From a virus, in the IMG/VR virus record IMGVR_UViG_3300020193_000004, positions 51,145 to 115,144 of that record: a DNA stretch of 64,000 nucleotides. One strand, given 5' to 3'. A program made the translations under genes and the position numbers. A model generated the notes under the pieces. The model did not search any database, was not told the origin of the DNA, and saw nothing but the letters and a program-made list of their open reading frames with translations. Each line of letters starts with the position of its first letter. Within the stretch, counting starts at the first letter, position 1. Shown one piece after another: positions 24,465-58,813 of the stretch.

Positions 24465-24742
24465 CAGAAACCTCTCACGGTGGGTCCAGTACCACGGACG
24501 AAGCGCTCGTCCTGCGCCAGCCTACCAGCCATCTGCGGGACCTGGGTAGCTGCACCGACCCCGATCGTGCCAAGGAGTCCGGCGCGCATGATCGGGTTCG
24601 GGGCAACGACACCGGCGCCGTGCCAGATGCCCTTCCCGAGTAGTCCGACTCCCTGCCCGACGGCCTTGACGGTGGTACCGAGCCAGCCGGCCTGCTTGCA
24701 CCACTCGGTGAGCGGACCACCCAGACTACTGGTAGAGCGCAT
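24464..24742 (-). CDS. Small glycine-rich membrane protein
   Basis: A 92-residue protein starting MRSTSSLGGPLTEWCKQAGW at ATG 24742, with GGAG seven bases upstream; it overlaps the end of the previous gene by 17 bases. Two hydrophobic Gly/Val-rich segments (TTVKAVGQGVGLLGKGIWHG and IMRAGLLGTIGVGAATQV) suggest membrane insertion. Function unknown; one of several similar small proteins in the structural block. Confidence 0.6.
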   Translation of the reverse strand: MRSTSSLGGPLTEWCKQAGWLGTTVKAVGQGVGLLGKGIWHGAGVVAPNPIMRAGLLGTIGVGAATQVPQMAGRLAQDERFVRGTGPTVRGF

Positions 24743-25628: not shown

Positions 25629-25696
25629 CTTGAGTACCTGCAGGGGTGCTTGCGCAAGAATATACCCTTCTTCGACCTTGCGCACGGGAGGAGTAA
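25629..25696. promoter_or_regulatory. Divergent intergenic region with AT-rich element
   Basis: This 68-base gap separates the minus-strand structural block from the MerR-type gene. It holds AAGAATATACCC, unusually AT-rich for the window; on the minus strand it reads GGGTATATTC. A similar minus-strand GGGTATGTTA occurs upstream of the block starting at 58735. It is a probable promoter region for one or both directions. A strong GGAGGAG serves the plus-strand GTG. Confidence 0.4.
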
Positions 25697-27575: not shown

Positions 27576-30500
27576 TTAGCTCTCGAGCCTCCGATCGATC
27601 GCCGCGCTCGGCACGAAGATGTCAGGGCGCGGGGTGTCCAGCATCGACACGCAGGTGAGGAACAGCAGCGCGTGGAAGGAGTCGTCGGTGTTGTTCGACG
27701 ACTTCTTGTACTGCGTCATGTGCATGTGCTCGTTGTACTCGGAGAAGATCGAGAGCATGTCGGCGGCGTAGGGAGCTGCAAAGTCCTTCCAGGCGGGGAA
27801 CTTGTAGACGGTGCCGCGCTTGATGGCGTTGAAGATCGCAGACATCACTTCCGAGCGGTGGATGATGTAGCGGCCCAGTTGCGAGTCCCACTTCATGAAG
27901 ACGCTGGGGGTCGAGTACTGGAAGCGGACGATACGCTGCGAGCCGTACTTCCGCAGGAGCTCGTCGTTGGGGTGGAGCCCGCCGCCGTAGTCGACTCCAA
28001 CACGAGCGAGCTGGAAGGTGTCGATGAGGCGACAGATCTTGTCCATCTGCACGCGGATGTCGGTGTCTGCTCCGATGAAGCGGTACGCGTAGATGACGCG
28101 GAACCGCCCCTGGTAGTAGCCGCCGATCTTCATGACGGTGTGGGACTTCGTGCTGTCCTGCCCCCAGTCGATCCCGCCGTAGAGTGGGATGCCGTTCAGC
28201 TTCTCCCGCCAGAGCTTCACGATCTCCGGGAGGAGGCGCATCTGCTCGTCGCAGTTGATCTGGATGTCGGCCGCCGTCAACGGGCGCTGGCCGCTGTCGT
28301 ACGAGAGCCCGAGGCACTCGTTGAAGAACATGGCGCGCGGGTAGTCGTTGTACTTGGTGTACAGGTCCTTCCAGTCGATCCACGGCACCATCAGCTGCGG
28401 GATGCGGTAGCCCTCGTACACACTGAGCGTGGGGTCGGGAGAGCCCGTGCGAACCCACTGCGCGAGCGGGTGTGCCGGGTCGATCGGACCGCCGCACTTG
28501 TCGCAGATGAGCCCCAGCTTGCCGATGTTCAACTCGCCGAGGATGTTCCAGTGCCAGGACCCGGGGTCCTTCGGCGTGCCGTGGCGCTCGCAGGGGACGC
28601 CCCACTCGTTCTGCGTGGAGAAGTTCGACCAGTAGTGCTCGATGGGGTTGTCGTTGGACTTCGGCGTCCCCGAGTAGATGAAGTACCTGTATGGGGAGTG
28701 GGAGGCGGCCTCCTCGATGACGGGGATGTTCTCGAGGAGGATGTCCTGGATCTCGTCGAGGGCAACCAGGTCCGCGCGCAGCCCGCGGCACCGGTCCGCG
28801 TTGAGGAAGGCGTACCGGAGCGTCACCGTGCTGCGATTGATGGCCTTCTTCTCGAAGACGTTGTCGGTGAGGTGGATGGGGAACCACTTCCGCAGGTCGG
28901 GCGAGGTCTCCAGGGTCTCGCGGATGCGTGTCTTCGAGAACTCCTGCGTCTGCTGCGCGGAGGGCGAGACATAGAGCGTTCGGAAGTGCGGGATGAGGCA
29001 GCTGCTCGCGAGGATCCGGTTCCCGAGCGTTGTGCTGTTGTGCGTGACGATCGCGCCGGCGACACAGTTGTGGTGGTCCGCGACGGTCAGGTCGTAGCAC
29101 CACTGCTCGCCGAGGTCCTCGACGGCCTGGACCTCGTCCCAGTACACGTCGGAGTCGAGGTGGGCCTCGAGCAGGTCCACGTGGGCCTGGTCATATCGCT
29201 CGTCACCGCGGAAGAACTCGACAAACTGCGCGAGCTTGTCCTTCGTGAGGCAGTACTCGTCAGGGGGCAGACGGGCGATGCCACATGACCGAAGGGTGCG
29301 GTCTCCCTTCCTCGGCTGCACCGCCGCGTAGACCTCCCGGACGAGCTGCGTGACCTCGGGTGGGTACGTGTCGGTGTTCGAGTTCGACTCCCATGGTTCG
29401 AGCTCTTGGCACTCGATCTTGTCCAGCGCGCCGATCTCGCGTACGAAGGCGCGGATGCCCTCCTGCGTCTCCACACGCAGGATGTACGCGAGCTTCTTCT
29501 CCCCGCGCTTCTTGTAGATGTTCGGCCAGTTCTCGCGGATGCACGAGGGGATACCGAACTTGTGCAGCAGCGACTGCACCTGCAGGACGAGCCTCTGCGA
29601 CATCGAGCAGTACTCGATGGACCACTTCGTCGCGTGGTTCATCTTCACATGGCCGTCGGTCGACCACAGGCGGTTCAGGAAGAGCGCAGTCTGCTCGCGG
29701 GAGAGCTGAAAGACCCAGTCCGGGACGAACTTCGTGTACGAACTCGTGCCGAGGAGGCCGTCCTCGTCGAACCAGTCGTAGAGCTTCTGAGCGCTGTAGC
29801 GGGGGAGCTGAAAGTCGACGGCCCTGGAGCGAGGGTCGTCCTGGAACGTATAGCTCATGCCCTCGTCGCAAAGAGCGCGGTCGAAGTCGTCGAGCACGGC
29901 GTACGAGGCGTTCGTGAAGCGGAGGGCCTTGGCGGCGCAGGAACCGTCCCCGATCATGAACGCCGTCAGCCTCACGCGGGACTCGGGTTGCGGCTCGGCG
30001 AGGAAGACGCCGGCCTGGCGCACGACTGCGATGCGGTCGCCCACACGGACGTCGCTGGCGTCCCGCCAACCGGCCCACACGCGCACGGGGTGCGTGGTCG
30101 CCATCTCGGATGCGTGGCCCTGGCGCGTGCGCACGCGGACGCAGGGCTTCTGATAGCGCCTGGACTTCCACGTGACCTCAGATGTTGTCGTACGGTGACC
30201 ATACCCACGTTCGACGCCGGGCTCCGCCTCGTCCGTCTTGAGGCACACGAGCTCATCACCGAGTTCGACGTCCTTGACCTGCTTGAAGGTCCCATCAGCG
30301 CTTCGTAGAAAGGTAGTTTCTACCCAACTTTTCTCGACCTGCCGCGCACACTTCAACAGGATCCGTTTGTGCGGCGTGTCGTAGATCCGACGGAGGTAGG
30401 GACGTTCCGAGAAGTCGAAGCTCCTGAGGGACTTCGTCTCCGCGTCCGGCATCATGACCGACGTCTCGACGAACTGCGAGGGCGAGACCGCGAGGAGGGA

Positions 30501-30662
30501 GCGCGCCTCCTTCAGTGCCTCGCTGAACTCCCAGTCCGCCGCGTCAGGGGTCGGAGGCTCGTAGTCCCAGGGCTCCGCGTAGTCCAGGAGCGTCGTGTCC
30601 TCGCACTCCTGCTTGACGAGGCGGAAGACGTCGAGGGGATCCTGACGATCTGAAAGATTCAC
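27576..30662 (-). CDS. Large terminase subunit (TerL) interrupted by an intein
   Basis: A 1,028-residue precursor; removing a 431-residue intein leaves a 597-residue DNA-packaging motor. The N-extein ends CARQVEK (105-111) and the C-extein begins STTLGNR. Splicing restores the P-loop CARQVEKST, so ATPase activity depends on intein removal. The Walker B is DLVALDEIQD. The nuclease domain has YGGIDWGQDS, ARVGVDYGGG and NNTDDSFHALLF, supplying the acidic metal ligands of TerL nucleases. A CDKCGGPID phrase lies between the two domains, with one C-x2-C pair. The start is a GTG at 30662 with GAGG upstream. It is a single minus-strand gene between two plus-strand islands. Confidence 0.92.
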   Translation of the reverse strand: MNLSDRQDPLDVFRLVKQECEDTTLLDYAEPWDYEPPTPDAADWEFSEALKEARSLLAVSPSQFVETSVMMPDAETKSLRSFDFSERPYLRRIYDTPHKRILLKCARQVEKSWVETTFLRSADGTFKQVKDVELGDELVCLKTDEAEPGVERGYGHRTTTSEVTWKSRRYQKPCVRVRTRQGHASEMATTHPVRVWAGWRDASDVRVGDRIAVVRQAGVFLAEPQPESRVRLTAFMIGDGSCAAKALRFTNASYAVLDDFDRALCDEGMSYTFQDDPRSRAVDFQLPRYSAQKLYDWFDEDGLLGTSSYTKFVPDWVFQLSREQTALFLNRLWSTDGHVKMNHATKWSIEYCSMSQRLVLQVQSLLHKFGIPSCIRENWPNIYKKRGEKKLAYILRVETQEGIRAFVREIGALDKIECQELEPWESNSNTDTYPPEVTQLVREVYAAVQPRKGDRTLRSCGIARLPPDEYCLTKDKLAQFVEFFRGDERYDQAHVDLLEAHLDSDVYWDEVQAVEDLGEQWCYDLTVADHHNCVAGAIVTHNSTTLGNRILASSCLIPHFRTLYVSPSAQQTQEFSKTRIRETLETSPDLRKWFPIHLTDNVFEKKAINRSTVTLRYAFLNADRCRGLRADLVALDEIQDILLENIPVIEEAASHSPYRYFIYSGTPKSNDNPIEHYWSNFSTQNEWGVPCERHGTPKDPGSWHWNILGELNIGKLGLICDKCGGPIDPAHPLAQWVRTGSPDPTLSVYEGYRIPQLMVPWIDWKDLYTKYNDYPRAMFFNECLGLSYDSGQRPLTAADIQINCDEQMRLLPEIVKLWREKLNGIPLYGGIDWGQDSTKSHTVMKIGGYYQGRFRVIYAYRFIGADTDIRVQMDKICRLIDTFQLARVGVDYGGGLHPNDELLRKYGSQRIVRFQYSTPSVFMKWDSQLGRYIIHRSEVMSAIFNAIKRGTVYKFPAWKDFAAPYAADMLSIFSEYNEHMHMTQYKKSSNNTDDSFHALLFLTCVSMLDTPRPDIFVPSAAIDRRLES
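29037..30329 (-). mobile_element. LAGLIDADG intein in the TerL P-loop
   Basis: The intein spans residues 112-542 of the precursor. It begins with Ser (SWVETTFLRSADG, splicing block A), has ATTHPVRVW (block B) and ends CYDLTVADHHNCV...VTHN (blocks F/G), followed by Ser+1 of the C-extein. Two LAGLIDADG-type motifs, LTAFMIGDGS (232-241) and FLNRLWSTDG (328-337), mark an endonuclease domain with both Asp residues present. It is thus probably an active homing element. The site lies between Lys and Ser of the Walker A motif. Confidence 0.92.
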
Positions 30663-34794: not shown

Positions 34795-37584
34795 TCAGAG
34801 TTTGTAGGTCTTGAGCCCCTTGAGCCCGGTGATGACCTCCTCGAGGGACGTCATCGCGCGGACCGCGGCGGTCTTGGGGATGGACTGCAGGCCGAGCTGG
34901 GTAGCGAAGACCAAGCTGGCGAGCTTGCTCTGGGTCTCCTCGAGCTCGGGGATCGCGTTGACGAAGTCCTGTACGTTCTCGGCGTTGATGAAGCCGAGGG
35001 AGAGCAGGGTGTCGAGCGAGTCGACGCCGGCCAGGGCCTTCGCCTCCTTGTACAGCTCGATGGCCATGGCCTCCTTGAGGAGGCACACCGGCTTGGGCAC
35101 CGGCCCCCTGGTAGTGGCGATGTCCGCCACCGCGTCGGCGAAGGCCTCCTTCACGATGGCCGGGTCGGGCGACAGGGTGCGCAGGCCGTAGATACGTACA
35201 GGCTCCCCGGTCATGGCCGCCTTCTCCATCAGGGCGACGGAGAGGTTCTGGGGCACACCCGCGGCCGCGAGGTAGAAGATCGCGTCCGGCACGCCGTAGT
35301 CGCCCGAGCCGACCTTCTCGAAGACGGGGCCGGTGAGCTTCGCGCCCTGGAGCCCGCCGTAGCCGTCGGTCCAGGCGCGGATGACCGCGGAGCTGGAGAA
35401 GGAAGCAATCTTGGCGGGCATCATCGGATCGGCGCCTGCGCCCATCAGCTCGACCTGCCCGTTCAGGGGCATCCAGACGTAGTCGGCCGGCATCGCGATC
35501 TCGGTGGGGCTGGTCGCGATCGGGCGGCGGATGCCGTCGCTCGGGGTGATCTGGACCTCCATCCCCTCCATCGTCTGCGCGGCGTAGTAGCGCACGCCCT
35601 CGACGCTCACCGCGGTCATCACCGTGAACGGGATGGTGGCGATGATGCCCTTGCCGTCGGTCTTGTAGAAGACGCCGAGGCCGCGGGGTTCGGACTGCCC
35701 GCCAGGCAGGTTGTAGCTGACGCCCACCAGCACGCCGGCGATGTCCGGCTGCAGGGCGAAGGCGCTGCCGTTGGTGAAGAGCTTGGTCGGCGTCGTCTGC
35801 CCGGTGCGCGGGTCGAAGAGCGTCGGGATGACGTAGCCGACGAGCTCGTTGCCGGTGCTGGCCTCGTGGACCTTGTAGGTACCGAAGCCCTCGACGGGCT
35901 GCACCTGCTCCTCGAGGGGGTCGGGCTCCGCCTCGACACCGGTCATCGTGGCCACGCCCTGCTGGTCGGCGGTCTGGAGGGCCTCGGGCGGGAGGGTCTG
36001 CTGGGCCTGCGCCTGCGACATCTCCTGCTGCTGGGGCTGCACGCCATCCGGCGCCGCGGCCCACTTCACCAGGTAGCCGAACTCGGTGGGGCGCACCTGC
36101 ACGACGTCGAACCGGCCACGCGACGCGAGCTTCGTCGCGCCCTGGACGGTCATGCGGGTGCCTACGCCCTTCGAGGCGATCTTGTTCAGCGCGGCCATGG
36201 TCGAGGGGCAGATGGGCAGGAGGTCAGCGACCGCCGCGTCCTTGTACATCTCCTCGAAGACGGCGAAGTCGCTCGCGCGGACGGTGCCGGCGATCTTGGT
36301 CGAGAGGTTCACGGAGCTCTCCTTGACGATGAAGTCTCGAATGTGGCCGGCTGCACGACGGAACGGAGACAGTACGCGGTCACGTGCAGCACCGACCTCC
36401 GACTTCGCCGCGCTCATACCACCTGCGACCGCGGCATGTCCTGCCTCCTGCGCCAAGGGAGTCACGTGAGGTGCCACTGCGGCAACCGCGGCGTCTGCCA
36501 TGTTCTTCCCGACTTCTCGGGAGAGGGGGGCGATGTGCGGGGCCAGCGCCTTAACCGTGGCGTTGGCGTACTCGTCTCCGACCATCCTGGCGCGGGTCTT
36601 GATGAAGTCGTCCAGGTGCCCGAGAGCGGCAGGTGCGTAGTGGGCTGCTGCGCCGGCGCCGAGACCAAGCACGCCACCCTTCGCGGCACCGACGAGTGCA
36701 CGGTGACGCGCGAGCTGGTTGCCGAGTTCCTTGCTGCGATCGGCGTCCTCCTTCTTCATGAGGCCGCGCTGGACAAGGTCGTCCATCCCCATGCGCCCGA
36801 CGTGCTGGCGCTCACGCTCCTTGAGGTACGCCCCGATGCCCCCGAGCGTGGAGCCCCCGAGACTGGTGAGCGCGATGGTGCCGGCGGAGGCCTCCTTCTG
36901 CCGCTCCGAGTACGCATGGGGCATGTGGCCGATCACGGACTTGTGGTGCCAGTCCGGACCGTGCTGCTGCTCCAACGCACGCTGAAGAGGGCCCCAGGAC
37001 CCAACGCTGTCTCCGCCGCAGTAGGCTGCGCGCATCGCGGCTTGTCCGTGCATCCAGTTCATGTAGTGCCTGTCCAGCTCGGCGCTGTGCTGCTGCAGAA
37101 ACGCCTTCTCTTCGGCCGAGCCTTCCGCGTGCCGCATCAACTGCTGCTGCAACGGGTTGTACTTCTTCTCCTTCACTTCCCACACGGGGTGCAGATCCTT
37201 GGCGAACTGCTTGGCGTCGACCATGAACCGGTGCGGACGGATGTTGCGGACGTAGGGGCGTACCTGATCTTCCGGAATGCCCGAGGCGGCTGAGACCTGG
37301 GCCACGTAGGCGGAGGGGGCCTCGCTCTCCATGAGCTTCCTGGTAAGAAAGCTACCGATCCCGGCGTGCTTGTCCACCTCCGCAGAGGCCTCCTTCCCGA
37401 TGTCTGGGAAGCGGGCGTGGACGGCGTCCTGGACCTGCTTCTTCTCCGCGGGTGTGCCGTGTTGCGCGACGCGGGCGAGCGCGTTGCGGGCATGAGCAAG
37501 ATCGTGCACGGGGTACTTCCTCTTCTCGGGGAGGGCGAACGCCCCATCTGAGAGGCTATTCCGCTGTTGCGTTGTCAGATCCAT
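34795..37584 (-). CDS. Large multidomain virion protein with N-terminal 'LTTQQRN' domain and many K-x-A-S motifs
   Basis: A 929-residue protein. Residues 1-60 form a conserved phage unit: LTTQQRNSLSDGAFALP, YPVHDLAHARNALARVAQHG and a basic helix. The part to ~430 is helical, with a hydrophobic Gly/Ala segment (LVGAAKGGVLGLGAGAAAHY). Residues ~520-560 are a Gln-rich linker (PQQQEMSQAQAQQ). The C-terminal ~350 residues are beta-rich (ELVGYVIPTLFDPRTGQTTP) and then helical. K-x-A-S appears at least six times (GKEAS, QKEAS, NKIAS, TKLAS, AKIAS, SKLAS). Its start overlaps the HNH gene by 29 bases. No enzyme motif is seen; a structural or injected protein is likely. Confidence 0.65.
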   Translation of the reverse strand: MDLTTQQRNSLSDGAFALPEKRKYPVHDLAHARNALARVAQHGTPAEKKQVQDAVHARFPDIGKEASAEVDKHAGIGSFLTRKLMESEAPSAYVAQVSAASGIPEDQVRPYVRNIRPHRFMVDAKQFAKDLHPVWEVKEKKYNPLQQQLMRHAEGSAEEKAFLQQHSAELDRHYMNWMHGQAAMRAAYCGGDSVGSWGPLQRALEQQHGPDWHHKSVIGHMPHAYSERQKEASAGTIALTSLGGSTLGGIGAYLKERERQHVGRMGMDDLVQRGLMKKEDADRSKELGNQLARHRALVGAAKGGVLGLGAGAAAHYAPAALGHLDDFIKTRARMVGDEYANATVKALAPHIAPLSREVGKNMADAAVAAVAPHVTPLAQEAGHAAVAGGMSAAKSEVGAARDRVLSPFRRAAGHIRDFIVKESSVNLSTKIAGTVRASDFAVFEEMYKDAAVADLLPICPSTMAALNKIASKGVGTRMTVQGATKLASRGRFDVVQVRPTEFGYLVKWAAAPDGVQPQQQEMSQAQAQQTLPPEALQTADQQGVATMTGVEAEPDPLEEQVQPVEGFGTYKVHEASTGNELVGYVIPTLFDPRTGQTTPTKLFTNGSAFALQPDIAGVLVGVSYNLPGGQSEPRGLGVFYKTDGKGIIATIPFTVMTAVSVEGVRYYAAQTMEGMEVQITPSDGIRRPIATSPTEIAMPADYVWMPLNGQVELMGAGADPMMPAKIASFSSSAVIRAWTDGYGGLQGAKLTGPVFEKVGSGDYGVPDAIFYLAAAGVPQNLSVALMEKAAMTGEPVRIYGLRTLSPDPAIVKEAFADAVADIATTRGPVPKPVCLLKEAMAIELYKEAKALAGVDSLDTLLSLGFINAENVQDFVNAIPELEETQSKLASLVFATQLGLQSIPKTAAVRAMTSLEEVITGLKGLKTYKL

Positions 37585-38026
37585 GGGACGTCTCCAGATA
37601 CGCGATCATCTTCCTCAGCAGCACGGGGCTGTCTCGGATCGACCCGAGCACCCGATTACACCGATTGCACAGCCACCCACGAAACGTCCCGCTTGCGTGG
37701 CAGTGGTCGAACACGACCTTACCGGACTCTCCGCACAGCTCACAAGCGGCTGGACGCGGGCGCCCGGCAAGAGCCACACGCGCCGCTTCCTGCCGGGCTT
37801 TGAACTGCTGTTGCCGGCGTTGTGCTCCCTCAGGGTCGGCCGAGCGGCGGCGACGCTGCGCCTCCCGATCGAGATCTCGAACTCGTTCCTGGTTCTGCTC
37901 CCGGTGTCGATCGCGAGCAGCCCTGACTTTGTCCGGGTGGCGCTCTCGGTACCTACGCGCTTGCTCTGCGACCTTGTCGGGATTCTGCTTCCGCCATGCC
38001 TTGACCACTGCGTAGTCGCCAGACAT
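37556..38026 (-). CDS. Endonuclease VII-like HNH nuclease, probable free-standing homing endonuclease
   Basis: A 156-residue protein. The C-terminal ~55 residues carry CELCGESGKVVFDHCHASG, then FRGWLCNRCNRVLG and a final LLRKMIAYLET. This is the recombination endonuclease VII pattern: a four-cysteine zinc site, catalytic D-H-x-H, then R-G-x-L-C-x2-C-N. The N-terminal ~90 residues are very basic helices with two copies of a 'NPDKV / HPDKV' unit (KQNPDKVAEQARRYRERHPD), probably DNA-contacting. It lies between two structural genes and overlaps the downstream gene by 29 bases. A fragment of that gene's N-terminal domain lies upstream, which suggests insertion. A genuine junction-resolving role cannot be excluded. 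Confidence 0.8.
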   Translation of the reverse strand: MSGDYAVVKAWRKQNPDKVAEQARRYRERHPDKVRAARDRHREQNQERVRDLDREAQRRRRSADPEGAQRRQQQFKARQEAARVALAGRPRPAACELCGESGKVVFDHCHASGTFRGWLCNRCNRVLGSIRDSPVLLRKMIAYLETSHGSDNATAE

Positions 38027-38070
38027 CGACCACCTCCATAAGTCATGGAGATGATAACCCTCGGCTCCGC

Positions 38071-38154
38071 GTCATGGATGGGGTAGCGCCGCCCAGGAAG
38101 CGCGAAGGCACCCTCACCGAGGTTGTTGCGCTGGTCCGTGGTGAGCTCGGACAT
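38071..38154 (-). pseudogene. Truncated copy of the 'LTTDQRN' N-terminal domain
   Basis: From the ATG at 38154, overlapping the previous stop, 28 codons read MSELTTDQRNNLGEGAFALP followed by YPIHD. They match the first ~28 residues of the gene at 34795-37584 (LTTQQRN...GAFALP...YPVHD). After that the similarity ends and the HNH gene starts ~45 bases further on. It is either a relic left by endonuclease insertion or a 5' flank carried in with it. The two copies differ clearly in DNA sequence, so this is not a recent duplication. Confidence 0.6.
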
Positions 38155-41100
38155 CAGCGACCTCCCAGGGTCGGCTGCGGCGCGGGCTCGGGGTTGCGCT
38201 TCTTGAGGAAGTGACGGATGCCAAGAGCCCCGGCAGCCCCAGCAGCCGCGACCCCAGCCCCGAGCACGGCATTGCGCCTGGTCAGGTGCCTGGCGAACCC
38301 ACCTGCAGCAGGCGCCGCCGCGTGCGCGGCCTCCGCAACAACCGGGGCCGCGTGCGACGCCGCCGCTGCCGGCACAGGCGTGTGAACGGGCGCAGGCGTG
38401 TGCACGGGTGCTGCAGGCGGTGGTACCGGCTTCGGAGGTGCTGCTGCAGGCGCAGACGGTGCTGCAGGTGCAACGTCGGAGATCTGCGGGGTCGCAGCCG
38501 GCTGCCGACTGTGGACACGGTCCTGGAGCTTCTGGTATCGATCGGCCACGCGGTTCAGACGCTGCGCCTTGTCAGCATCGCCTGCGGCAGCAGCGGCGGC
38601 GGCGTGTGCACGTAGCTCCTTCGCGCTACCTGTTAGCTCCCTCGCGGAAATGACCGTCTTGCCCCTCCGGACTTGCGCGGCACCCGCATCCGCGGCCTGC
38701 TGCACCGCTGGTGCGTGAGAGATCTGCGGGGTCGCAGCGGCTGGCGTCGGTGCAGCCGGTCGAGGTGCCGTGGGCTCCGCGGTCCAATGTCCGTCATAGG
38801 CAGCCGCGATGTCCTGACCCGTGTTGATGTGCGCCGGAGAAGGGTTCTTCTTTACATGCTCCCCCCACTCGTTCACAGCTCGAGAGACCTGTGCACGCCG
38901 AGCCTCCTGCGCAGCGTTGTGCTGTGCCGCCGCCTGCGCCTCCTGCGCTGCTTGTGCCTGCTGCGCACGCGCCAGCTGCGCCGGGGCCAGCCTCTGCGAG
39001 TTCTCTACGGCAACCGCAGGCGCCTGGGCCGCACGACGGGCCGCTTCCCGTGCCTGCAGCTCTGCTCCGGTGAGCGCCTCCTTCACGAAGAAGGCACGGA
39101 TGCTCGCCATCTTGGATGCTTCGGACATGGGCGCCCCACAGCTCGAGCAGTGACCGGTGTTCCCGACAGTACCCGTACCGCAGTACGCGCACTTGTACTT
39201 CTGCGGGGCGGCCGGGGACGACGACGACGACGAGCGGTCGCCGTAGTGGTGGTGCTCCGTCCGTGCAGGACGAAGCGCGTTGGAGATGACCGCGGCCTGG
39301 AGAGCATGCCGGTGGCGCCGCTCCTCGCCAGCGACGCCCTCGATCGCATGCCGGATCGCCTGGTGTGCCTCGTCCCTCTCCGCCGCCGGTCCTGCGGTGT
39401 TGACTCGCTTCCACTTTGCGATGGCCGCGTCATCGGATGCCTTCATGCCCCCGCCGATGAGCGCGCCGCCGAGACCGCCCACCACAGCCCCCAGCGCGGC
39501 CCCGCGGAGCCCGTGCCCGCGCCCGCCGTGCATTCCTGCGAGAGCTCCCGTGAGGAGGCCGAGTCCACCGCCGACACCCCCGCCGGTCGTCAGCGCGGTA
39601 CCGAGATCAGTCTGCTTTTCCTTCGCCTTCTTCCTGCCGTAGTCGATGACCGCCTTCTCCCGATCACCTTGGCTGACTGCGGCAGAGGCGAGGTAGTCAC
39701 GTCCGGGGTGGCTGGCTCCGAAGACCGCGGCGCCCTTCTCGCCAGCGGGCATCGCCGGTGACATCGGCATGGGCTGCGCTGCCGGGACCGTCTGTGGGTC
39801 CGGAGCGGTCGGTGCGGGCTGCATCGCATCGGCGATCTGGGGAACTGGTTGTTCCTGCGTGGCGGCAGGCGGGGCCGCCGCGGACGGATCGCGCTGCTTG
39901 AGTAGGTACTGGTTCGTCTCGTGCGTGCTCGCGATGCCCATCAGCAGGTCGTCGATCCCAAGGGAGAGCCCGCCGCCCTGGTCGAGGGAGCTGTAGGCCT
40001 CGAACAGGGTTGCCTGGAGCTCTCCCTCAGCGATGAGCGCCGCCTCGAAGATGCTGCCCGCGCCCTGCATCCACTGCTGGGAGCGGGCGGAGGCCTCGGC
40101 GAAGATCGTGCCGGGGTCCAGGCTCTGGTTGCCACCGTGCCCGACGATGCGCTCCGCCACGCTGTCGAACTCCTCCCGCACACCCTCGTACAGGCGCGTG
40201 AAGAGCTGGTGGTCTGAGTACGACGCCTCGCCCTGGCTGGTCCAGTGGGCGAAGTAGTAGAGCTGGTGGAGCGCGAAGAGCGTCGAGAGTACGGGGGCCA
40301 GTGAGGATGCGACGGCGTCCGGCACGGGGGTCGGGGTGTGCTCGGCGGCCTTCTCCGGCCCAGCTTCTCGAAGACGCTCCTCGATCCGCCCCAGTCGAGA
40401 CTTCAAGCCTGACCTGAACCCATAGTGTCCCGCGGCCGCACCCAGTGCCATCGAGCCGAGAGCGATCGGAAGGTCTGCCGCGCCAAGACGCGGACCGAAG
40501 TGAGAGGCGATGCCCATCCCCAAGGCGCCTCCCGCAGCCCCCGGAAGCGTCGCCGTGCGGCTCGCGAGCTGCTGCTCGACACGCTCCTTCTCGGCCAGCA
40601 GCTCCTCGCGCGTCATGGAGCCTACGAGTCTCGGCGTACCTACAAGTGCCGGCCCCCCGACCTTGGTGGCGGCACCAGCCAGCGGGATGGGCGCCGCGCT
40701 GATCTTGTTGAGGCCCATCGCCGGCTCGGTGACGCGGCCGAAGCCGTTGCGCTGCTGGTAGGGCGGGTAGAGCGAGTCCAGCAGCCCGGGCGAGCTCGGC
40801 ATGCTGGTGGCGTCGGTGTCGAAGATCGCCGGGTTCAGCATGGCCTGCTGGATGCGCTCCTCGGTCAGCGGGTAGACCTGGCCGCCCGCCTCGAAGATGT
40901 AGAACTTCTGAAGGCGGCGGTTCTCCACGACGATGGGGATGCGGAGGACGTTGCCCGCGTTCGGGAGGTTGTCCTGGGGGCGCGACATCGTGCGGTTCTG
41001 GACCTGCGCGTAGCCCAGCGCGCCGCCGGCCTCGGGGTCCATCCGGTCGAGGACGATCTCGATGTCGTACCGCGTGAGGAAGGGGTTCTCCTTCTGCAGC

Positions 41101-41222
41101 TCGGAGAAGATGTGCGCGGGCCACTTCTTCTCGTCGTCCGGCATACGCGAGATCGCCGACGCGACCTTCGTGGCGAAGAGGTCGTCGGAGGTCTTGAGCT
41201 GGATCAGAAGGGGTTCATGCAT
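38154..41222 (-). CDS. Large virion protein with an internal Dps/ferritin-like domain
   Basis: A 1,022-residue mosaic. Residues ~305-445 match Dps: H326-W, H338, D353 and E357 in HQLYYFAHWTSQGEASYSDH and FDSVAERI. Spacings 12, 15 and 4 are exactly those of Dps ferroxidase ligands. Upstream is an N-terminal alpha/beta part and a Gly/Ala segment (~226-266). Downstream come a Pro/Ala linker, a glycine zipper (TGGGVGGGLGLLTGALAG), a zinc ribbon (KCAYCGTG...HCSSCGAPM), an Ala/Gln-rich helix, Pro-rich repeats (PAPVHTPVPAAAA) and a C-terminal membrane-like helix (VLGAGVAAAGAAGALGI). TKVAS and SKMAS motifs are present. A role in DNA condensation, metal binding or protection of packaged DNA is inferred. 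Confidence 0.75.
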   Translation of the reverse strand: MHEPLLIQLKTSDDLFATKVASAISRMPDDEKKWPAHIFSELQKENPFLTRYDIEIVLDRMDPEAGGALGYAQVQNRTMSRPQDNLPNAGNVLRIPIVVENRRLQKFYIFEAGGQVYPLTEERIQQAMLNPAIFDTDATSMPSSPGLLDSLYPPYQQRNGFGRVTEPAMGLNKISAAPIPLAGAATKVGGPALVGTPRLVGSMTREELLAEKERVEQQLASRTATLPGAAGGALGMGIASHFGPRLGAADLPIALGSMALGAAAGHYGFRSGLKSRLGRIEERLREAGPEKAAEHTPTPVPDAVASSLAPVLSTLFALHQLYYFAHWTSQGEASYSDHQLFTRLYEGVREEFDSVAERIVGHGGNQSLDPGTIFAEASARSQQWMQGAGSIFEAALIAEGELQATLFEAYSSLDQGGGLSLGIDDLLMGIASTHETNQYLLKQRDPSAAAPPAATQEQPVPQIADAMQPAPTAPDPQTVPAAQPMPMSPAMPAGEKGAAVFGASHPGRDYLASAAVSQGDREKAVIDYGRKKAKEKQTDLGTALTTGGGVGGGLGLLTGALAGMHGGRGHGLRGAALGAVVGGLGGALIGGGMKASDDAAIAKWKRVNTAGPAAERDEAHQAIRHAIEGVAGEERRHRHALQAAVISNALRPARTEHHHYGDRSSSSSSPAAPQKYKCAYCGTGTVGNTGHCSSCGAPMSEASKMASIRAFFVKEALTGAELQAREAARRAAQAPAVAVENSQRLAPAQLARAQQAQAAQEAQAAAQHNAAQEARRAQVSRAVNEWGEHVKKNPSPAHINTGQDIAAAYDGHWTAEPTAPRPAAPTPAAATPQISHAPAVQQAADAGAAQVRRGKTVISARELTGSAKELRAHAAAAAAAGDADKAQRLNRVADRYQKLQDRVHSRQPAATPQISDVAPAAPSAPAAAPPKPVPPPAAPVHTPAPVHTPVPAAAASHAAPVVAEAAHAAAPAAGGFARHLTRRNAVLGAGVAAAGAAGALGIRHFLKKRNPEPAPQPTLGGR

Positions 41223-45712: not shown

Positions 45713-46072
45713 CTACTGCTGGCGCCGCGGTGCGGTCATGCGGCCGGCGAGGACGCCCGCGCCTCCGGCACCGATCATGCCGGCGCCAGCGAGCCCCGCG
45801 ACGCCCGCGGCCGTGCCGGGGTTCGCCGCGATGCCCCTGCCGAGGTTGCGCACGCCCTGGCCCGCTTCGTGGAGCCACGTCGTGCCCCGCGTAGGAACCC
45901 CCTGGCTCGCCTGGTACGCCGTGCGCTGCATCGCACCGCCGAGGCGCCCAACCTGGTGTCCCACCCACTTTGCACCGCTGGTGACGGCCTCGCCGACGGG
46001 CGCGAAGCTGATGGCCTCCTTGTCGAAACCCGCTTCCTTGTAGATCTCGTAGACGTGGGCGACCTTGTTCAT
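45713..46072 (-). CDS. Small glycine-zipper protein with N-terminal VYEIY tag
   Basis: A 119-residue protein starting MNKVAHVYEIYKEAGFDKEA, a clear variant of the VYDxY tag. The C-terminal ~45 residues are a glycine zipper (GTAAGVAGLAGAGMIGAGGAGVLAG) ending in a basic tail. The middle is helical (VGHQVGRLGGAMQRTAYQAS). Its start overlaps the beta' stop (ATGA), so it is translated with the polymerase genes. Function unknown. Confidence 0.65.
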   Translation of the reverse strand: MNKVAHVYEIYKEAGFDKEAISFAPVGEAVTSGAKWVGHQVGRLGGAMQRTAYQASQGVPTRGTTWLHEAGQGVRNLGRGIAANPGTAAGVAGLAGAGMIGAGGAGVLAGRMTAPRRQQ

Positions 46073-49000
46073 CGACGTACTCCAGCGGCGGGTGAGGGTG
46101 CAGAGATAGCACGCGGCGGGCGTGTTCCGAACTCCGCTCCGTGCGCGAGCCCCGGGATCGGGTGCTCGTGGATGTTGGACTTCCAGCCCTGGGCGGCACC
46201 CTCGGTGTAGGTGTCCTTCAGGCGCTGGTAGTTGAGGCGCGCCATCCAGTCCTCGGTGCCGCTGAGCGGGACCTGGGTCATGGCGCGGAGCACCGGTGCG
46301 TGCGAGACCGTCTCGTGCCCTTCGGCTTCGGCCTCCGCGTTGTGCGCCTCGACGGCAGACAGCGGCACGACCTCGCCGCGACGGAACGGGCTGGCGTGCG
46401 GGGCATCGTGGATCTCGGCGAGGTTCGTCATCCCCCGCACGACGGTCTCGATGTTCCGCTGCCGCACCATCCCCTGGTAGGCTGTGGCCACCTCGTCCGT
46501 GATGTAGTTCCGGACGCGCCCGATGCTCTTCGTGTGGTGCAGCAGCTCGTGTGGATCCGTGGGGCCCGTGGAGAGCGCATCGCCGCGATGGACGCGAGCG
46601 CCGACCTTCACATGCTCGAGCAGGTGCCCGGTCACCACGCGGTGGGGCTTGCCTTCAATGACCACGGTGAATCCGCCGAGGGCGTCCGTGGAGATCTTCT
46701 CGACCACGCCTCCGACCGTGGCCAGGGTGGCGCGGTCCGGGAGCTTGTCCGGCAGCATGAACAGCTGCTTCACGCGCTTGAAGGAGTCGACAGCGGTCTT
46801 TGCCCCCGAGACGCCTCCCGTGTGGAAGGTCTTCATCGTGAGCTGGGTGATCGGCTCACCGAGCGCCTGGCCTGCGATGACCCCGATGTTCGTCCCGACG
46901 GCGTGCAGGGCCCCGCGCTCCGAGTGCCCATAGCACTTCGCACAGATGCCGCGCGGCATCCGGCAGAACAGCGGGGAGCGCGCCACTACCTCCTGCACAC
47001 CAGCGTTCCGCAGCTGAGAGACCAGCGCCGGCGTCACGAGAGTGCCCGCGGGGATGGCATGGCCGTCCGGGAGCTTGACGTCGGTGGCGAGGAAGCGGTC
47101 GACCAGGTCCACTGCGCCCACGCTGACCGTCTTGCCGGCCGTGGCCCCGCAATCTTCGCCCGTGATCTGGATGCCCATCGTGGTGTTCACGATGTCCTTC
47201 GTCACGGCACCAGGCTCCTTGGTGCCCTGCGCGCGGTCGATGGTGCCCTTGCGAGCACCGTGCATCGACGCCCAGTACTCGGAGACAGACAGTCCCTCAC
47301 CGAAGGACTTGGTGATGGGGACCGGCACGGGACGCTTCATCAGGTCGTCGACGAGGATGGGGGCGACGGTCAGCTGCGAGAACTGCCCCCAGTTGCCGCG
47401 CGCACCGGCCTGCGCCCACTCCCACACGCGGTTGTCACCCTGGTTGTAGCGGACCACCCCGAGCTGCTTCAGCTCGGCCTGTGCGTCCTGGTAGAGCTTG
47501 ACGATCTCCTGGTCACGCTTCCGGCTCGACATCGGCGTGGCGTGCAGCTTCTTCTCCTGCTCCCGGTACTTCTTCAGGACCTGGTCGCGGAACGCCGCGC
47601 CGTCGTGGAAGTCGTCGATCGAGAAGGAGCTCCCGTTCTTGAACGACATGGTGTTGCCCAGGTCCTTCCACGCATCGACGACGTGCGGGAAGGCCTGCTC
47701 GTGCTCCTTGCCAACGCGCGTGAGTAGCGCCTTCAGCCGCCCCGAGTCGAGGCGGAACGCGGGGTCGTGCAGGAGCTGCTCATGCTTCGCCATCTCGCCG
47801 GGAAGGTGCGCGGCCAAGGCCAGTCGACCGGGAGTCGTCTTCTTCCCATCGACCGTGATCACGTCCGACGGCTTCAGCTTCCCGTCGTGCATCATCTGGA
47901 CGGCCCGCTCGGCCGTGAGACCGGCGGGGGTCTTCGCCTCTTCGCCCCACTTGGTAGACTGGAAGAGCCCAAGCAGGGAGTCCTGATCGGGCACCGTCAT
48001 GAGTCCATAGGTAGTGGGCGAGAACAGGTTCTTGGAAGGGAGGACCTTCCGGGCCTCGTCGACCGCCTGCGGAGAGACGGGCACGTAGAGGGCCATCGTG
48101 TCGCCGTCGAAGTCCGCGTTGAAGCCCTTGGTCACCAGTGGGTGGATCTTGATGGCGCTGCCGTCCACGATCTTCGGGTTGAACGCCATGATGCTGAACT
48201 TGTGCAGGCCGGGGTCGCGCTTGAGGAACACCGGGTGGTCCGCGACGGCGCGCTCGAGTGCCGCGAGGACCTGAGGGTGGTCCCGCTTCTCGGTGGCCCA
48301 CTTGAGCGCGTCGATGTGCGTCTTCCCGCCCCGCACGAGCTCGCGGATCACGAAGGGCTTGTACATCTCCATAAGGATCGGGCGCGGGACTCCGACCTCG
48401 TCGAGCCCAAGCGTCGGCTCAGGGACGATCGTCGAGCGTCCGGAGAGATCCTGGCGCCGCGCAAGCACACCCTCCTGGAAGAAGCTCTCCTTCGGAGCCC
48501 CGCGATCCTCCGTCTTCCCGGAGAGGAGCTCCATGAGCCCCTGCATGTGCCGCGGCTTGCCGGTGCCTGCGGGAGAGGTCATGCCCTCGACACGGAGCGC
48601 CCTGATGCTGTTGTAGAGCTCAGCGCGTGCCTTCTGGGCCCCGGCGTGCGTCGACGACTTGTCGAGGTTCTTGAGGATGCCGTTGTTGTACCCGACGTTC
48701 AGGTACAAGGGATTCCGGTCGTCGGTCACTTGCTTGCCGTCGAGCCCGATGGACACGCGACGCACCGCGGGCGGCAGCACGGGCAGGTGCTGGTTCGTGT
48801 AGGCCTCGAGGGGCGACATGTCGTGCGCCTTGAGGGCCTCGAGGTACCGGATCTTCTTGAGCCCGCGGTTCAGATCGGTCCTGCTCGCCGTGGCCAGCTT
48901 CGCCTGCTCCGCCTTCAGTTCCTTGTCCACGTCGATGGCGGACAGCCGCGCGTTGATGATGTGGAACCCTGACTTCCCGCCGACCAGCCCCTTCTCGCTG

Positions 49001-49278
49001 GTGAGCATGTCGTATTCCTTCTTCGTCAGGCCCGTCAGGTTCTGGATGGCCCCCTCGAAGATGGGGTTCGGCATGCGCTCGGCGAGCGTCACGTGGCTCC
49101 AGAACTTGCCCTGGAGGCCGCCCGTGACGCGCGGGTCGAACAGGCCGCCCGACTCTTCGACGGTCCGCGCCCCGCGAGCGACGGTCTGCTTCTCCGGGAG
49201 CCGGATCTCTCCGTTCGAGATGCCGTGGATGCCGCGCTTCGTGTCGCCCAGCAGGTGCGCGTCCGTCATCGGCATCAT
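46069..49278 (-). CDS. RNA polymerase beta' subunit homologue (single polypeptide)
   Basis: A 1,069-residue protein; E. coli RpoC has 1,407. The catalytic loop NADFDGD is at 387-393 with all three Asp. Upstream are DLSGRSTIV (277-285) and YKPFVIREL (306-314). A zinc site is formed by C710, C772, C779 and C782 (FCRMPRGICAKCYGH). The bridge-helix/trigger-loop region reads GEPITQLTMKTFHTGG (807-822). The C-terminus has the bacterial-type VATAYQGMVRQRNIETVVRG and MARLNYQRLKDTY. The N-terminal zinc finger is absent: GGLFDPRVTGG runs straight into LAERMPNPIF. It overlaps the beta gene by four bases. Confidence 0.95.
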   Translation of the reverse strand: MMPMTDAHLLGDTKRGIHGISNGEIRLPEKQTVARGARTVEESGGLFDPRVTGGLQGKFWSHVTLAERMPNPIFEGAIQNLTGLTKKEYDMLTSEKGLVGGKSGFHIINARLSAIDVDKELKAEQAKLATASRTDLNRGLKKIRYLEALKAHDMSPLEAYTNQHLPVLPPAVRRVSIGLDGKQVTDDRNPLYLNVGYNNGILKNLDKSSTHAGAQKARAELYNSIRALRVEGMTSPAGTGKPRHMQGLMELLSGKTEDRGAPKESFFQEGVLARRQDLSGRSTIVPEPTLGLDEVGVPRPILMEMYKPFVIRELVRGGKTHIDALKWATEKRDHPQVLAALERAVADHPVFLKRDPGLHKFSIMAFNPKIVDGSAIKIHPLVTKGFNADFDGDTMALYVPVSPQAVDEARKVLPSKNLFSPTTYGLMTVPDQDSLLGLFQSTKWGEEAKTPAGLTAERAVQMMHDGKLKPSDVITVDGKKTTPGRLALAAHLPGEMAKHEQLLHDPAFRLDSGRLKALLTRVGKEHEQAFPHVVDAWKDLGNTMSFKNGSSFSIDDFHDGAAFRDQVLKKYREQEKKLHATPMSSRKRDQEIVKLYQDAQAELKQLGVVRYNQGDNRVWEWAQAGARGNWGQFSQLTVAPILVDDLMKRPVPVPITKSFGEGLSVSEYWASMHGARKGTIDRAQGTKEPGAVTKDIVNTTMGIQITGEDCGATAGKTVSVGAVDLVDRFLATDVKLPDGHAIPAGTLVTPALVSQLRNAGVQEVVARSPLFCRMPRGICAKCYGHSERGALHAVGTNIGVIAGQALGEPITQLTMKTFHTGGVSGAKTAVDSFKRVKQLFMLPDKLPDRATLATVGGVVEKISTDALGGFTVVIEGKPHRVVTGHLLEHVKVGARVHRGDALSTGPTDPHELLHHTKSIGRVRNYITDEVATAYQGMVRQRNIETVVRGMTNLAEIHDAPHASPFRRGEVVPLSAVEAHNAEAEAEGHETVSHAPVLRAMTQVPLSGTEDWMARLNYQRLKDTYTEGAAQGWKSNIHEHPIPGLAHGAEFGTRPPRAISAPSPAAGVRR

Positions 49279-52200
49279 GACGTATCGTCGCCACGCTTCT
49301 CGGTGTTCACCCCCATGGCGCGTAGGTAGTGCTGGAAGTTGGTCATCCCACGCGAGGGCTGCGGCGGCGGGAGCGGACTCCCGGAGATCACGGCGGCCCA
49401 GGCGGCGTGCTGGTCCCCGTCGCTCTTGAAGGTGTAGGCCTCCCGGAGGTTCTGGTTCGCACCGTGCGCGAGCATCGCGTACGTCGTGAGCATGTCCATC
49501 TTCTGCCCGCCGCCAGGGACGCCGGAGCCCTTCGGGGCCTCCCCGGAGTGCGTGTAGCCGGTCGCGAAGGACCGACCGGTCATCTTCTTCTCGACCTGGT
49601 GATGCAGCTGCATCATGTACTGCTTGCCGACCATCACCTGCCCGACCGAGCGTCCGGTCTCCGGGTCGATGAGCTCTTCCGTATCGGAGAGCCCGTACCG
49701 TGCCAGATCCCGCTTGACCTGCGCGGCGTAGTCGACGCCGGGCACGAAGTTCTCCACGACGTAGGGCTTGCCGGTCTTGTCCGCGATCTTCGACGCGGCC
49801 GTCTCGAGCACCTGCCCCACGTTCATACGGCTGGGCACGCCCGCGGGGTTCAGGAGGACCTCGACGTGCTGCCCGTCCTTCGTGTGGGGCATCTGGGAGT
49901 CGGGGACGATGCGGCTGATGATGCCCTTGTTGCCGTGCCGCCCCGCCATCTTGTCACCGATCTCGAGCGGCTTGGACGTCTTCACGTGGACCGCGATCTG
50001 GCGCCGGTTCAGAGTCTCGTTGACGATGATCTTGACTACGGTCCCGGAGTACGGGTGGTCCCACAGGAGCGACACGTCCTTGTAGGGCTTCGCGAGGGAC
50101 TTGTGGATGCGCGCAGCGATCTTGTCGTCCTCGCTCATCTGCTTCGGGCTGAGGACGGCCACGAGGATGTCGCCGGTGTGTACAGGCGTCCCCTCCTTCA
50201 CGATCCCGCGGTCGTCGAGCTTGGCCAGGTGCTCCGGCGAAGCCGCGGCAGGGGTCGCGTAGTCCGCCCAGCGCGCCTTCGACCCGCCGGTGCCGCCGAG
50301 CATGCTCGCGTAGACCGTGATCTCCGAGACGTGCAGGTGGTCCGACGCCATCTTCTGCGCGGCGGACTCGGACACGACGATCCCGTCCTCGAAGGTCAGA
50401 CCCTTCCACGGGATGTAGGCCACCCGCAGATTGGCCCCCATCGCGAGCGCGCCGCCCTTCGTGTAGTTCGTGTCCGCGAGCAGCGTGCCCTTCTGTACGG
50501 TGTCGCCCGCCTTCACGAGCGGTGCAGCGTGGAGCGAGTTCTTCCCCCCGTTCAGCGGGAAGTGGTTGTAGACCGGGACCGCCACGGAGCCCGTGGGCGT
50601 CTGGACATGGATGGCGCCCGGCTCCACCTTCCTGACCACGCCGGCCACGGGCGACGTGTGCGAGACGAAGGAGCCCACAACCTGCTCGAAGGTCTGGGCG
50701 CCGTCCGTCTTCACCTGCACGAGCGGAGCTTCCCGGTGCACCAGTGCGAGCGCCTGCTCCTGCTGCTTGGCAGCCATCATGGCGCGGTTGCCGTTGTCGT
50801 TCTGGAGGAACGGGATGAGGTTCGCACTGAAGGAGAGCAGGGCCTTCGACGACGGGAGCACGTACCGGACCTTCGCCCAGGGACGCTTCGACGTGCGACG
50901 CTCCTCGTCGTAGCAGACGACCTCGTTCGACACCGGCTCGGGCATGCCCCGCACCCAGCGCACCTGGTCCGGGTAGGCCACGATGGCGTGCTCGAGGTCC
51001 GCCGGCGAGGCCAAGATCATCTTCCCCGTCTTCGTGTCGAAGACCTTTGTGCGTAGGTCCTGGCCGGAAGACGTCTTGCTCTTCGAGCCCTCGCGCACGT
51101 CGGCACGCGACATGTGGATCCCCAGGGGCAGGTTCAGCGCGATCCCGGTGTCCTCTCCCTCTGGGGTCTGGATCGGATCGATGAACCCAAGGTGCGTGGG
51201 GTTCAGTTCCTTGTCGGGGTCGAGGTTGATCTTGTCACTGCCGACGCCGCCAAAGTCCTTGCCGCGGATCGTCGTCCGCATGTGCCCCGAGAGGAACTGG
51301 AGCGGGTTGGTCTGGTCGGGCCGCTGCGCGTGGGCGAACGGTGCCAGGACGACCTTGTTGTAGGTGTTCGGCGACATGATCTGGTCGATGCCGTACTCGG
51401 GCTTGTCGATCCGGTCGCGCACCTGGCGCCGCAGCAGCGTCTCGTGATGGCGGATGGCCTCCACGACGAAGTCCTCGGTCGTGGTCAGGTACTTGGCCGA
51501 CAGCGCCTGTCGATCATCGGGGAGCTCGGACGGCGGCGGGTCTTCCTTCGTGCGTCCCTTCTGGATGTCCAGGAGCCGGCGCGAGGATGCGAGGAGGTTC
51601 TCGCCGTTGACGTTGGAGGACTCCCTGCCGAACGCCGACTTCATCGCGTCTGGCCAGACCTCGGTCTCCCTGTCGAAGTACTCGCGGACGCGCTGGGCAC
51701 GCGCCTGCGGCGTCCCGTGCGACCGGTCCTCGAGGCGCAGCCCGAGCGCTGCGAAGAGCTTGTCCACGTCCTTGTCGAGGTGGACCGCCTTCGTGTTGGC
51801 GGCGTAGACGGCGTTCCCCCAGGCGTGCTCGATCTCCGCATCCGTGACACCGAGTGTGCGAAGCACGGAGTAGAGCGGCAGGTTCGAGGTCCCCACCGAG
51901 AATGTCATCTTGCCGGCCTTGGGTTCGTAGCCGATGTCGAACCCGCGGCCGCGCGCCAGGTTCCAGCGCCCCTGGAGGTCGCCGTTGCCCGCAATGCGGT
52001 GGTAGGGGCGGGGCTTCGAGCGGAAGACGCTGTCGTGCTGTCGCTCCTGCCCCTCGATGATGTAGGAGTACCGGCGCGTCATCTTCGGGAGGCGTGCGAG
52101 CGTGACGAGCTTCTCCTCCACGAGGGCACCGCTCGTCTTGTCAACGAGACGCAGTCGTGCCCGGACCGGCACGCCCCAGGTCATACCGGTCGTCCGCGCG

Positions 52201-52385
52201 CGGAACTGCTCCTCAAGGTTGTCGACGTGATGGATGTCGGAGGAGATGGCCGCGCGGTCGTCGAAGACGATCTCAGCCAGCTCCAGCCGCCGCCGCGCCC
52301 CCTCGAACGGGAACTGCGCGCGGATCGCCTCGGCGGCGCGCTCCTTGAGACTCTCGAAAGCGGCTTCTGGGTTAAGGTTCGGCAT
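49275..52385 (-). CDS. RNA polymerase beta subunit homologue (single polypeptide)
   Basis: I start it at ATG 52385 (MPNLNPEAAFESLKERAAEA), giving 1,036 residues; a longer frame runs through the divergent promoter and is rejected. Signature blocks: PTHLGFIDPIQTPEGEDTGI (396-415), FEDGIVVSES (665-674), GDKMAGRHGNKG (810-821), LLNPAGVPSRMNVGQVLE (844-861) and GKQYMMQLHHQVEKKM (920-935). The rifampicin region (~361-385, LQFLSGHMRTTIRGKDFGG) is short and divergent. The ribosome site is weak. It is the first gene of the middle minus-strand block, beta followed by beta'. No alpha, omega or sigma gene is seen in the window. Confidence 0.95.
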   Translation of the reverse strand: MPNLNPEAAFESLKERAAEAIRAQFPFEGARRRLELAEIVFDDRAAISSDIHHVDNLEEQFRARTTGMTWGVPVRARLRLVDKTSGALVEEKLVTLARLPKMTRRYSYIIEGQERQHDSVFRSKPRPYHRIAGNGDLQGRWNLARGRGFDIGYEPKAGKMTFSVGTSNLPLYSVLRTLGVTDAEIEHAWGNAVYAANTKAVHLDKDVDKLFAALGLRLEDRSHGTPQARAQRVREYFDRETEVWPDAMKSAFGRESSNVNGENLLASSRRLLDIQKGRTKEDPPPSELPDDRQALSAKYLTTTEDFVVEAIRHHETLLRRQVRDRIDKPEYGIDQIMSPNTYNKVVLAPFAHAQRPDQTNPLQFLSGHMRTTIRGKDFGGVGSDKINLDPDKELNPTHLGFIDPIQTPEGEDTGIALNLPLGIHMSRADVREGSKSKTSSGQDLRTKVFDTKTGKMILASPADLEHAIVAYPDQVRWVRGMPEPVSNEVVCYDEERRTSKRPWAKVRYVLPSSKALLSFSANLIPFLQNDNGNRAMMAAKQQEQALALVHREAPLVQVKTDGAQTFEQVVGSFVSHTSPVAGVVRKVEPGAIHVQTPTGSVAVPVYNHFPLNGGKNSLHAAPLVKAGDTVQKGTLLADTNYTKGGALAMGANLRVAYIPWKGLTFEDGIVVSESAAQKMASDHLHVSEITVYASMLGGTGGSKARWADYATPAAASPEHLAKLDDRGIVKEGTPVHTGDILVAVLSPKQMSEDDKIAARIHKSLAKPYKDVSLLWDHPYSGTVVKIIVNETLNRRQIAVHVKTSKPLEIGDKMAGRHGNKGIISRIVPDSQMPHTKDGQHVEVLLNPAGVPSRMNVGQVLETAASKIADKTGKPYVVENFVPGVDYAAQVKRDLARYGLSDTEELIDPETGRSVGQVMVGKQYMMQLHHQVEKKMTGRSFATGYTHSGEAPKGSGVPGGGQKMDMLTTYAMLAHGANQNLREAYTFKSDGDQHAAWAAVISGSPLPPPQPSRGMTNFQHYLRAMGVNTEKRGDDTS

Positions 52386-52411
52386 CTGTGAAGAGCGCTC
52401 CACTACTGGCC

Positions 52412-52417
52412 ATAAGA
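52412..52417 (+). promoter_or_regulatory. ATAAGA promoter-like box
   Basis: GCC-ATAAGA lies 25 bases before the GTG at 52437, in the 51-base gap divergent from RNA polymerase beta. GGAGG stands six bases before that GTG. Confidence 0.5.
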
Positions 52418-52436
52418 GCCATGACGGAGGTAGCCT

Positions 52437-52688
52437 GTGACTCAAAGTTCTACCACGCCCCGGAAGCGCGCGCTGCATGACAAGACGGCGGGGGCGCACC
52501 GGTCCACCCTGTCAGAGTTCGCGAGTTTGGTACACCAGATGGTATCGGGGCCGATGGCCCAGGAGGATGTCGTAGATGAGCACGCTCGAGTGGATGCTCC
52601 TGTTCGCCTTCATCAGCGGGGTGGCCACCGGCCTCGCGGAGTACGGGGCCGGGCTGTTGCCGCGGATTGGAAGGAAGAGACGGAGTAG
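52437..52688 (+). CDS. Possible small protein in the early plus-strand island
   Basis: An 83-codon frame starting at GTG 52437 with a good GGAGG and an ATAAGA box upstream (MTQSSTTPRKRALHDKTAGA). The first ~45 residues look protein-like. The last ~35 are Arg/His-rich and overlap the better-supported frame at 52576, so the end may be wrong or the overlap real. Function unknown. Confidence 0.4.
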   Translation: MTQSSTTPRKRALHDKTAGAHRSTLSEFASLVHQMVSGPMAQEDVVDEHARVDAPVRLHQRGGHRPRGVRGRAVAADWKEETE

Positions 52689-58735: not shown

Positions 58736-58784
58736 CTCTACCTCGACGGAAGGGGTCGATGTGCAGACCGTAACATACCCCGGC

Positions 58785-58790
58785 ATAAGA
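58785..58790 (+). promoter_or_regulatory. ATAAGA promoter-like box
   Basis: GGC-ATAAGA lies 29 bases before the GTG at 58814, with AGGAGG between. It is the likely promoter of the replication/repair operon. Confidence 0.5.
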
Positions 58791-58813
58791 GAGTCGAACC
58801 AGGAGGGCACTAA

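Follow-up and report, generated by a model that had tools for sequence, protein, structure and literature searches.

The locus and its neighbourhood

The window (the whole stretch of 64,000 nucleotides of viral DNA analysed here) carries on its minus strand a gene, 38154-41222, that encodes a protein of 1,022 residues, exactly as an initial annotation of this DNA had it. The product is large and multi-domain. The glycine zipper, the zinc ribbon and the Pro/Ala linkers which that annotation described are all present (Table 1). Pfam profiles matched Ferritin and gave otherwise sub-threshold matches; no hallmark polyvalent domain was found in this search.

Table 1. Features of the platform gene and of its neighbour in the window.
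Feature	Coordinates	Strand	Remarks
Whole gene, 1,022 aa	38154..41222	-	conserved platform domain and accessory modules including Dps
Conserved virion platform domain, residues 1-180	40683..41222	-	in 13/13 phage-family records; homology to Arash gp218 family
K291-A-A-E-H-T-P, K-x-A motif just ahead of Dps domain	40332..40352	-	also in L011, L012; processing role hypothetical
Dps domain, residues 298-450	39873..40331	-	AlphaFold2 pLDDT 94.9; listed PDB fold matches Dps; PHROG 3636; pN/pS 0.31-0.34 versus L011, L012
H326, ferroxidase ligand	40245..40247	-	Dps spacing; alignment of phage relatives
H338, ferroxidase ligand	40209..40211	-	Dps spacing; alignment of phage relatives
T342, fifth canonical ligand position	40197..40199	-	E in 67/70 relatives
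D353, ferroxidase ligand	40164..40166	-	invariant in relatives
E357, ferroxidase ligand	40152..40154	-	invariant in relatives
K496-G-A-A-V, K-x-A motif following Dps domain and its Pro/Ala linker	39723..39737	-	processing role hypothetical
Glycine-zipper segment, residues 547-592	39447..39584	-	similar Gly-rich segments in relatives L134, L148, L138
Zinc-ribbon knuckles CAYC...CSSC (C-x2-C...C-x2-C), residues 678-695	39138..39191	-	sequence
C-terminal hydrophobic segment, residues 982-1008	38199..38279	-	similar segment upstream of Dps in L011, L012
C-domain of next gene (34795-37584), other half of ancestral undivided virion protein	34795..36330	-	fused to platform domain in L147, L149, L150

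The platform gene is placed between RNAP/portal and the large terminase (TerL), in a conserved order. The neighbourhood that is kept comprises the genes for RNAP beta and beta', the 44531-45706 gene, the platform gene, the domain encoded at 34795-36330, several small genes and TerL. The gene upstream of that for the platform protein shows a weak baseplate-type match. Three further features belong to this description. TerL (27576-30662) contains an intein, with Intein_splicing and LAGLIDADG_3 matches within residues 164-542, a stretch missing from the relatives L003 and L004. At 37556-38154 an Endonuclease VII-type ORF adjoins a short and disrupted repeat of the beginning of the 34795-37584 protein (MSELTTDQRNN...GAFALP...YPIHD), which looks like the insertion of an endonuclease accompanied by a partial duplication. 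Finally, in one relative (L005:1199-5551) the RNAP beta' gene is broken by about 1.2 kb of unrelated sequence, a possible intron or insertion.

A conserved platform and a split gene

Full-length and N-terminal searches found the first 180 residues to be common to phages that have no Dps. Among the 13 phage-family records searched the platform domain is present in all and Dps in three. Neither sequence nor fold searches of the PDB gave a match to the platform domain. In distant members of the family this domain makes a single ORF with the C-domain that the window encodes in its next gene. A scan with these undivided proteins retrieved 127 relatives. The alignment made from them comprises 52 distinct long open frames, mostly undivided, and Dps was found in none of the 127 loci. 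The simplest history to be read from the sequences would be that an undivided ancestral protein was divided in the lineage leading to the window and that accessory modules came to fill the break. The gap of the split gene is now occupied by the Dps domain, the glycine zipper, the zinc ribbon and the Pro/Ala segments. The Dps domain is an optional cargo, not part of the conserved protein. Another type of cargo appears in a platform relative (L004:7980-9956), where a SUKH/SMI1_KNR4-like stretch replaces Dps (E 7e-5, just below the Pfam cut-off).

The major capsid protein (MCP) of the window (15864-17027) is a homologue of that of Salmonella phage Arash, and a search based on it brought together 34 loci of the same phage group. 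The two other carriers of Dps have MCPs 94% and 88% identical to that of the window, the remaining loci reaching at most about 74%, one fragmentary 47-kb contig being left aside. Since the three carriers are also nearest to one another in MCP, the domain was probably acquired in a single event, before the window phage and its two relatives diverged.

Homology with a protein found in phage particles

Comparison of profiles connects this family with a protein detected in particles. Aligned by hhalign with Arash gp218 and eight of its relatives, the undivided family gave a probability of 97.4% and an E-value of 1.5e-11 over 535 colinear columns. As controls, eight further Arash proteins gave E-values of at least 0.0026, but they were single sequences, and gp218 itself as a single sequence reached just 0.0009, so that the match owes its strength to the greater depth of the two alignments, and the controls are a less powerful comparison than the test itself. 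Direct HMMER searches of Arash and of Vibrio phage D69 with shallow and deeper platform profiles were not significant, and pairwise hhalign with profiles of two to six sequences was weak; the link emerges only from deeper profile-profile comparison. Both halves, platform and C-domain, are homologous to and colinear with the gp218 family, in which Arash gp218 and D69_0266 lie in the same gene region, after RNAP beta'. There, however, a single gene encodes both halves in a protein of 615-622 residues, with neither Dps nor other cargo between them, whereas the window carries them in two genes.

Mass spectrometry of purified Arash particles assigned 36 unique peptides to gp218 and 1,149 spectra, a count near those of RNAP beta' (1,210) and of the helicase gp217 (1,148) (PMC10585845). 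The initial annotation had spoken of a virion-type protein, and the conserved part of the chain bears this out: being homologous to a protein detected in particles, it makes the window protein very likely virion-derived. In the particle the chain may lie in the head or in its ejected content, or else in the tail, the upstream gene having a weak baseplate-type match. The RNAP beta and beta' genes of the window (46069-52499) are also homologous to those of Arash, where RNAP is the most detected protein of the particle (PMC10585845); their product is likely a virion RNAP.

The Dps domain

The same annotation had noticed that H326, H338, D353 and E357 follow one another at intervals of 12, 15 and 4 residues, and this is exactly the ferroxidase spacing of Dps proteins. 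The corresponding pattern, H-x11-H-x14-D-x3-E, occurs a single time in the six-frame translation of the window. Pfam Ferritin (PF00210) matches residues 312-410 with an E-value of 3e-5, at 24.4 bits for a cut-off of 24.5, and the relative L012 scores 31.0 bits. PHROG 3636, annotated as 'DNA binding protein', gives 2e-8 for the whole protein and 9e-10 for the domain, and the sequence matches of the window protein in the PDB are overwhelmingly Dps proteins. The structure prediction that had been proposed as a check, and that we made with AlphaFold2 for a single chain of residues 298-450 using 70 aligned sequences, returned a four-helix bundle with a short BC helix, that is, a Dps fold (pLDDT 94.9, pTM 0.90; helices A, B, BC, C and D, the BC helix being of Dps type). 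Any other fold would, according to the initial annotation, have refuted its proposal. Compared with the PDB by Foldseek, all 50 among the matches listed are Dps or Dps homologues, with a best TM-score of about 0.79. On this model, the virion-type protein contains a genuine Dps-fold domain.

The order of helices, the H/H/D/E ligands and the tryptophan after the first histidine (W327, retained here) are those of the Dps family (PF00210; PDB 8ff9, Pseudomonas aeruginosa PA0962; 2c41, Thermosynechococcus; 2chp). The window domain differs from that family in its threonine at the fifth ligand, its very acidic character and its embedding in a chain of 1,022 residues. D353 and E357 are invariant in all 70 aligned phage relatives; so are H326 and H338, but with a bias, because both were part of the search patterns, which contained neither D353 nor E357. 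Four residues after the second histidine, where a canonical Dps has an Asp or Glu as fifth ligand, the window has Thr342, a difference that the initial annotation had passed over. We take this position to be that of Asp67 in E. coli Dps and of Asp47 in Listeria Dps. The relatives have glutamate there in 67 cases of 70, and threonine solely in the window, L011 and L012, so that one canonical ligand is taken away exactly in the fused clade. The fifth ligand is not a strict criterion of the Dps family, and only canonical activity is put in doubt: it may be weak or lost. The domain is under purifying selection, with pN/pS of 0.21-0.34 at dS of 0.86-1.09, the platform domain being less constrained (0.41-0.59).

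A family of phage Dps proteins

A scan of viral contigs with a Dps alignment found 79 loci, most of which encode stand-alone proteins of about 145-280 residues, and all 70 aligned members matched PHROG 3636. By profile and alignment (26-74% identity) the domain belongs to this phage family, whose members mostly stand alone and have glutamate at the fifth ligand where the window has threonine. The statement that there is no standard phage equivalent was therefore too strong, Dps-like proteins being a recognised phage family, though one whose members usually stand alone. Nor are phage Dps proteins new as such, since stand-alone ones have been published, including those of Lactobacillus and gut phages (PMC8008677, PMC6669764). 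Within annotated phage records the only close relative was the stand-alone Dps of LR745208, a 485-kb phage. Two scans of genome contigs for cellular members of the subfamily, made with narrow patterns, gave no confirmed relative.

A minority of the loci have the domain embedded in a longer open frame: L022 (1,387 residues), L023 (871), L012 (796), L011 (626), L020 (564), L013 (429), L084 (427), and L071 and L072 (388 each). L011, L012 and the window group together in a fully supported clade that has no close sister. In L020 and L022 a single ORF joins Dps to an inorganic pyrophosphatase domain (InPase, PF18823; E 1.6e-40 and 2e-37) of the polyvalent-protein type, and the embedded Dps proteins of L013 and L023 are encoded near TerL. 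Both arrangements would fit a link of embedded Dps with late genes. Two large-phage records have a Dps gene close upstream of a GroEL-type gene, identified through PHROG in one (L016:5944-8996) and by eye from the translation in the other (L007:3835-6698).

A recurrent K-x-A motif

Several virion-type proteins of the window are enriched in K-x-A, often K-x-A-S/A, while RNAP and TerL are not. The overall count is 70 for K-x-A-[SAG] and 27 for its reversal; for K-x-A-[SA] in the 52 aligned platform relatives the corresponding counts are 353 and 36. Enrichment of K-x-A-[S/A] was seen in the MCP (15864-17027) and in the products of 19937-21442, 24726-25685, 34795-37584 and 57716-59257. In all 35 aligned phages the MCP has K-x-A at one N-terminal position, a few of them lacking S, A or G next to it; 47 of the 52 platform proteins have it near the N-terminus; and in all three Dps fusions it flanks the domain on both sides. 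From these positions, K-x-A might be a candidate site for a head-maturation protease or a packaging tag. A protease site with alanine at P1 would account for the positions in the MCP and at the N-termini, and would release the Dps domain. A universal cleavage site is another matter: conserved regions hold so many copies of K-x-A that not all of them can be cut.

What the fused domain may do

The reading that we prefer, to which we give about an even chance, is that of a virion-borne mini-ferritin cargo, a sink for iron or peroxide placed on a split protein of the gp218 family, and not mainly a DNA-condensing device. In this reading the window gene holds the N-terminal half of a conserved virion protein, which became divided in the lineage of this phage; the gap turned into a variable region for cargo, and there a Dps from the phage pool was inserted, probably once. 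Built into the particle, the chain would bring along a predicted Dps domain able to bind and oxidise iron, or to consume peroxide, either inside the particle or in the host cell just entered. Protection from oxidation and entry into the host, both suggested by the initial annotation, are plausible. A head-maturation protease may free this domain at the flanking K-x-A sites, permitting its assembly. A fuller version of this scenario, tentative and somewhat unlikely in our opinion, makes the mini-ferritin a removable cargo: cut out at K-x-A, Dps would assemble in the head, enter the host together with the genome and the virion RNA polymerase, and take up iron and peroxide ahead of the expression of any phage gene.

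It may be argued that the domain is an oligomerisation or scaffolding module, its subunit contacts gathering the virion protein while its iron chemistry is vestigial. The well-preserved fold and the loss of the fifth ligand in the fused clade alone speak in this direction; the retention, under purifying selection, of the four ligands and of W327 does not, and we find this proposal rather unlikely. Alternatively, the domain could act late in the infected cell as stand-alone phage Dps would, protecting replicating phage DNA, the fusion being incidental. This agrees with the prevalence of separate relatives and with the published interpretation of phage Dps (PMC8008677, PMC6669764), but sits badly with a domain that three phages have fixed within a gene for a virion protein and with a family homologous to an abundant particle protein; we judge it quite unlikely.

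Compaction of DNA in the head, which the initial annotation had put forward, or its coating, fares worse. E. coli Dps condenses DNA, and the chain does have basic stretches outside the domain, at residues 181-293 and 703-1022. The domain itself (residues 294-450) has a pI of 4.47, a net charge of about -14 and one lysine; the linker adjoining it (451-498) has a pI of 4.05; and the basic N- or C-terminal tail which serves DNA binding in a subset of Dps proteins is absent, there being no Lys-rich tail on the domain. Such acidity argues against condensation by the domain itself, and disfavours it as the main role. Several Dps proteins, moreover, do not bind DNA, for example that of Agrobacterium (1o9r, according to the title of the entry), and we hold this explanation to be very improbable. 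As for the idea that the spacing arose by chance in some helical region that has nothing to do with Dps, the single-sequence Pfam score, 0.1 bit short of the cut-off, is what could be said for it. It is contradicted by the PHROG 3636 and PDB matches, the predicted fold, the invariant ligands and the Ferritin score of L012; fold and family together rule it out, and it retains next to no credit.

Known systems and significance

Polyvalent proteins are likewise multi-domain late proteins with optional enzymatic cargo (PMC5512222), and the Dps-InPase fusions of L020 and L022 recall them; by contrast, the Pfam search showed no hallmark domain of theirs in the window protein, whose platform is a different one, and the phages found with InPase are Dps carriers other than that of the window. 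That paper mentions neither Dps nor ferritin. A further analogue for the carriage of packaged enzymes may be seen in the ejection proteins of SPN3US (PMC7411985, PMC10052503). In the open-access literature we found no published case of a virion-borne Dps. What is new is the placement of Dps in the variable region of a conserved virion protein, and this placement suggests that the particle carries an iron-handling cargo.

Published accounts treat phage Dps proteins as enzymes in their own right, whose place of action is taken to be the infected cell. If a Dps domain forms part of the polypeptide of a conserved virion protein, the genome could arrive together with protection against redox stress or iron; virions and iron would be linked in a way that can be tested. 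Divided, and with a cargo region whose contents can be exchanged, the virion gene also illustrates clearly the way in which large phages vary the contents of their particles.
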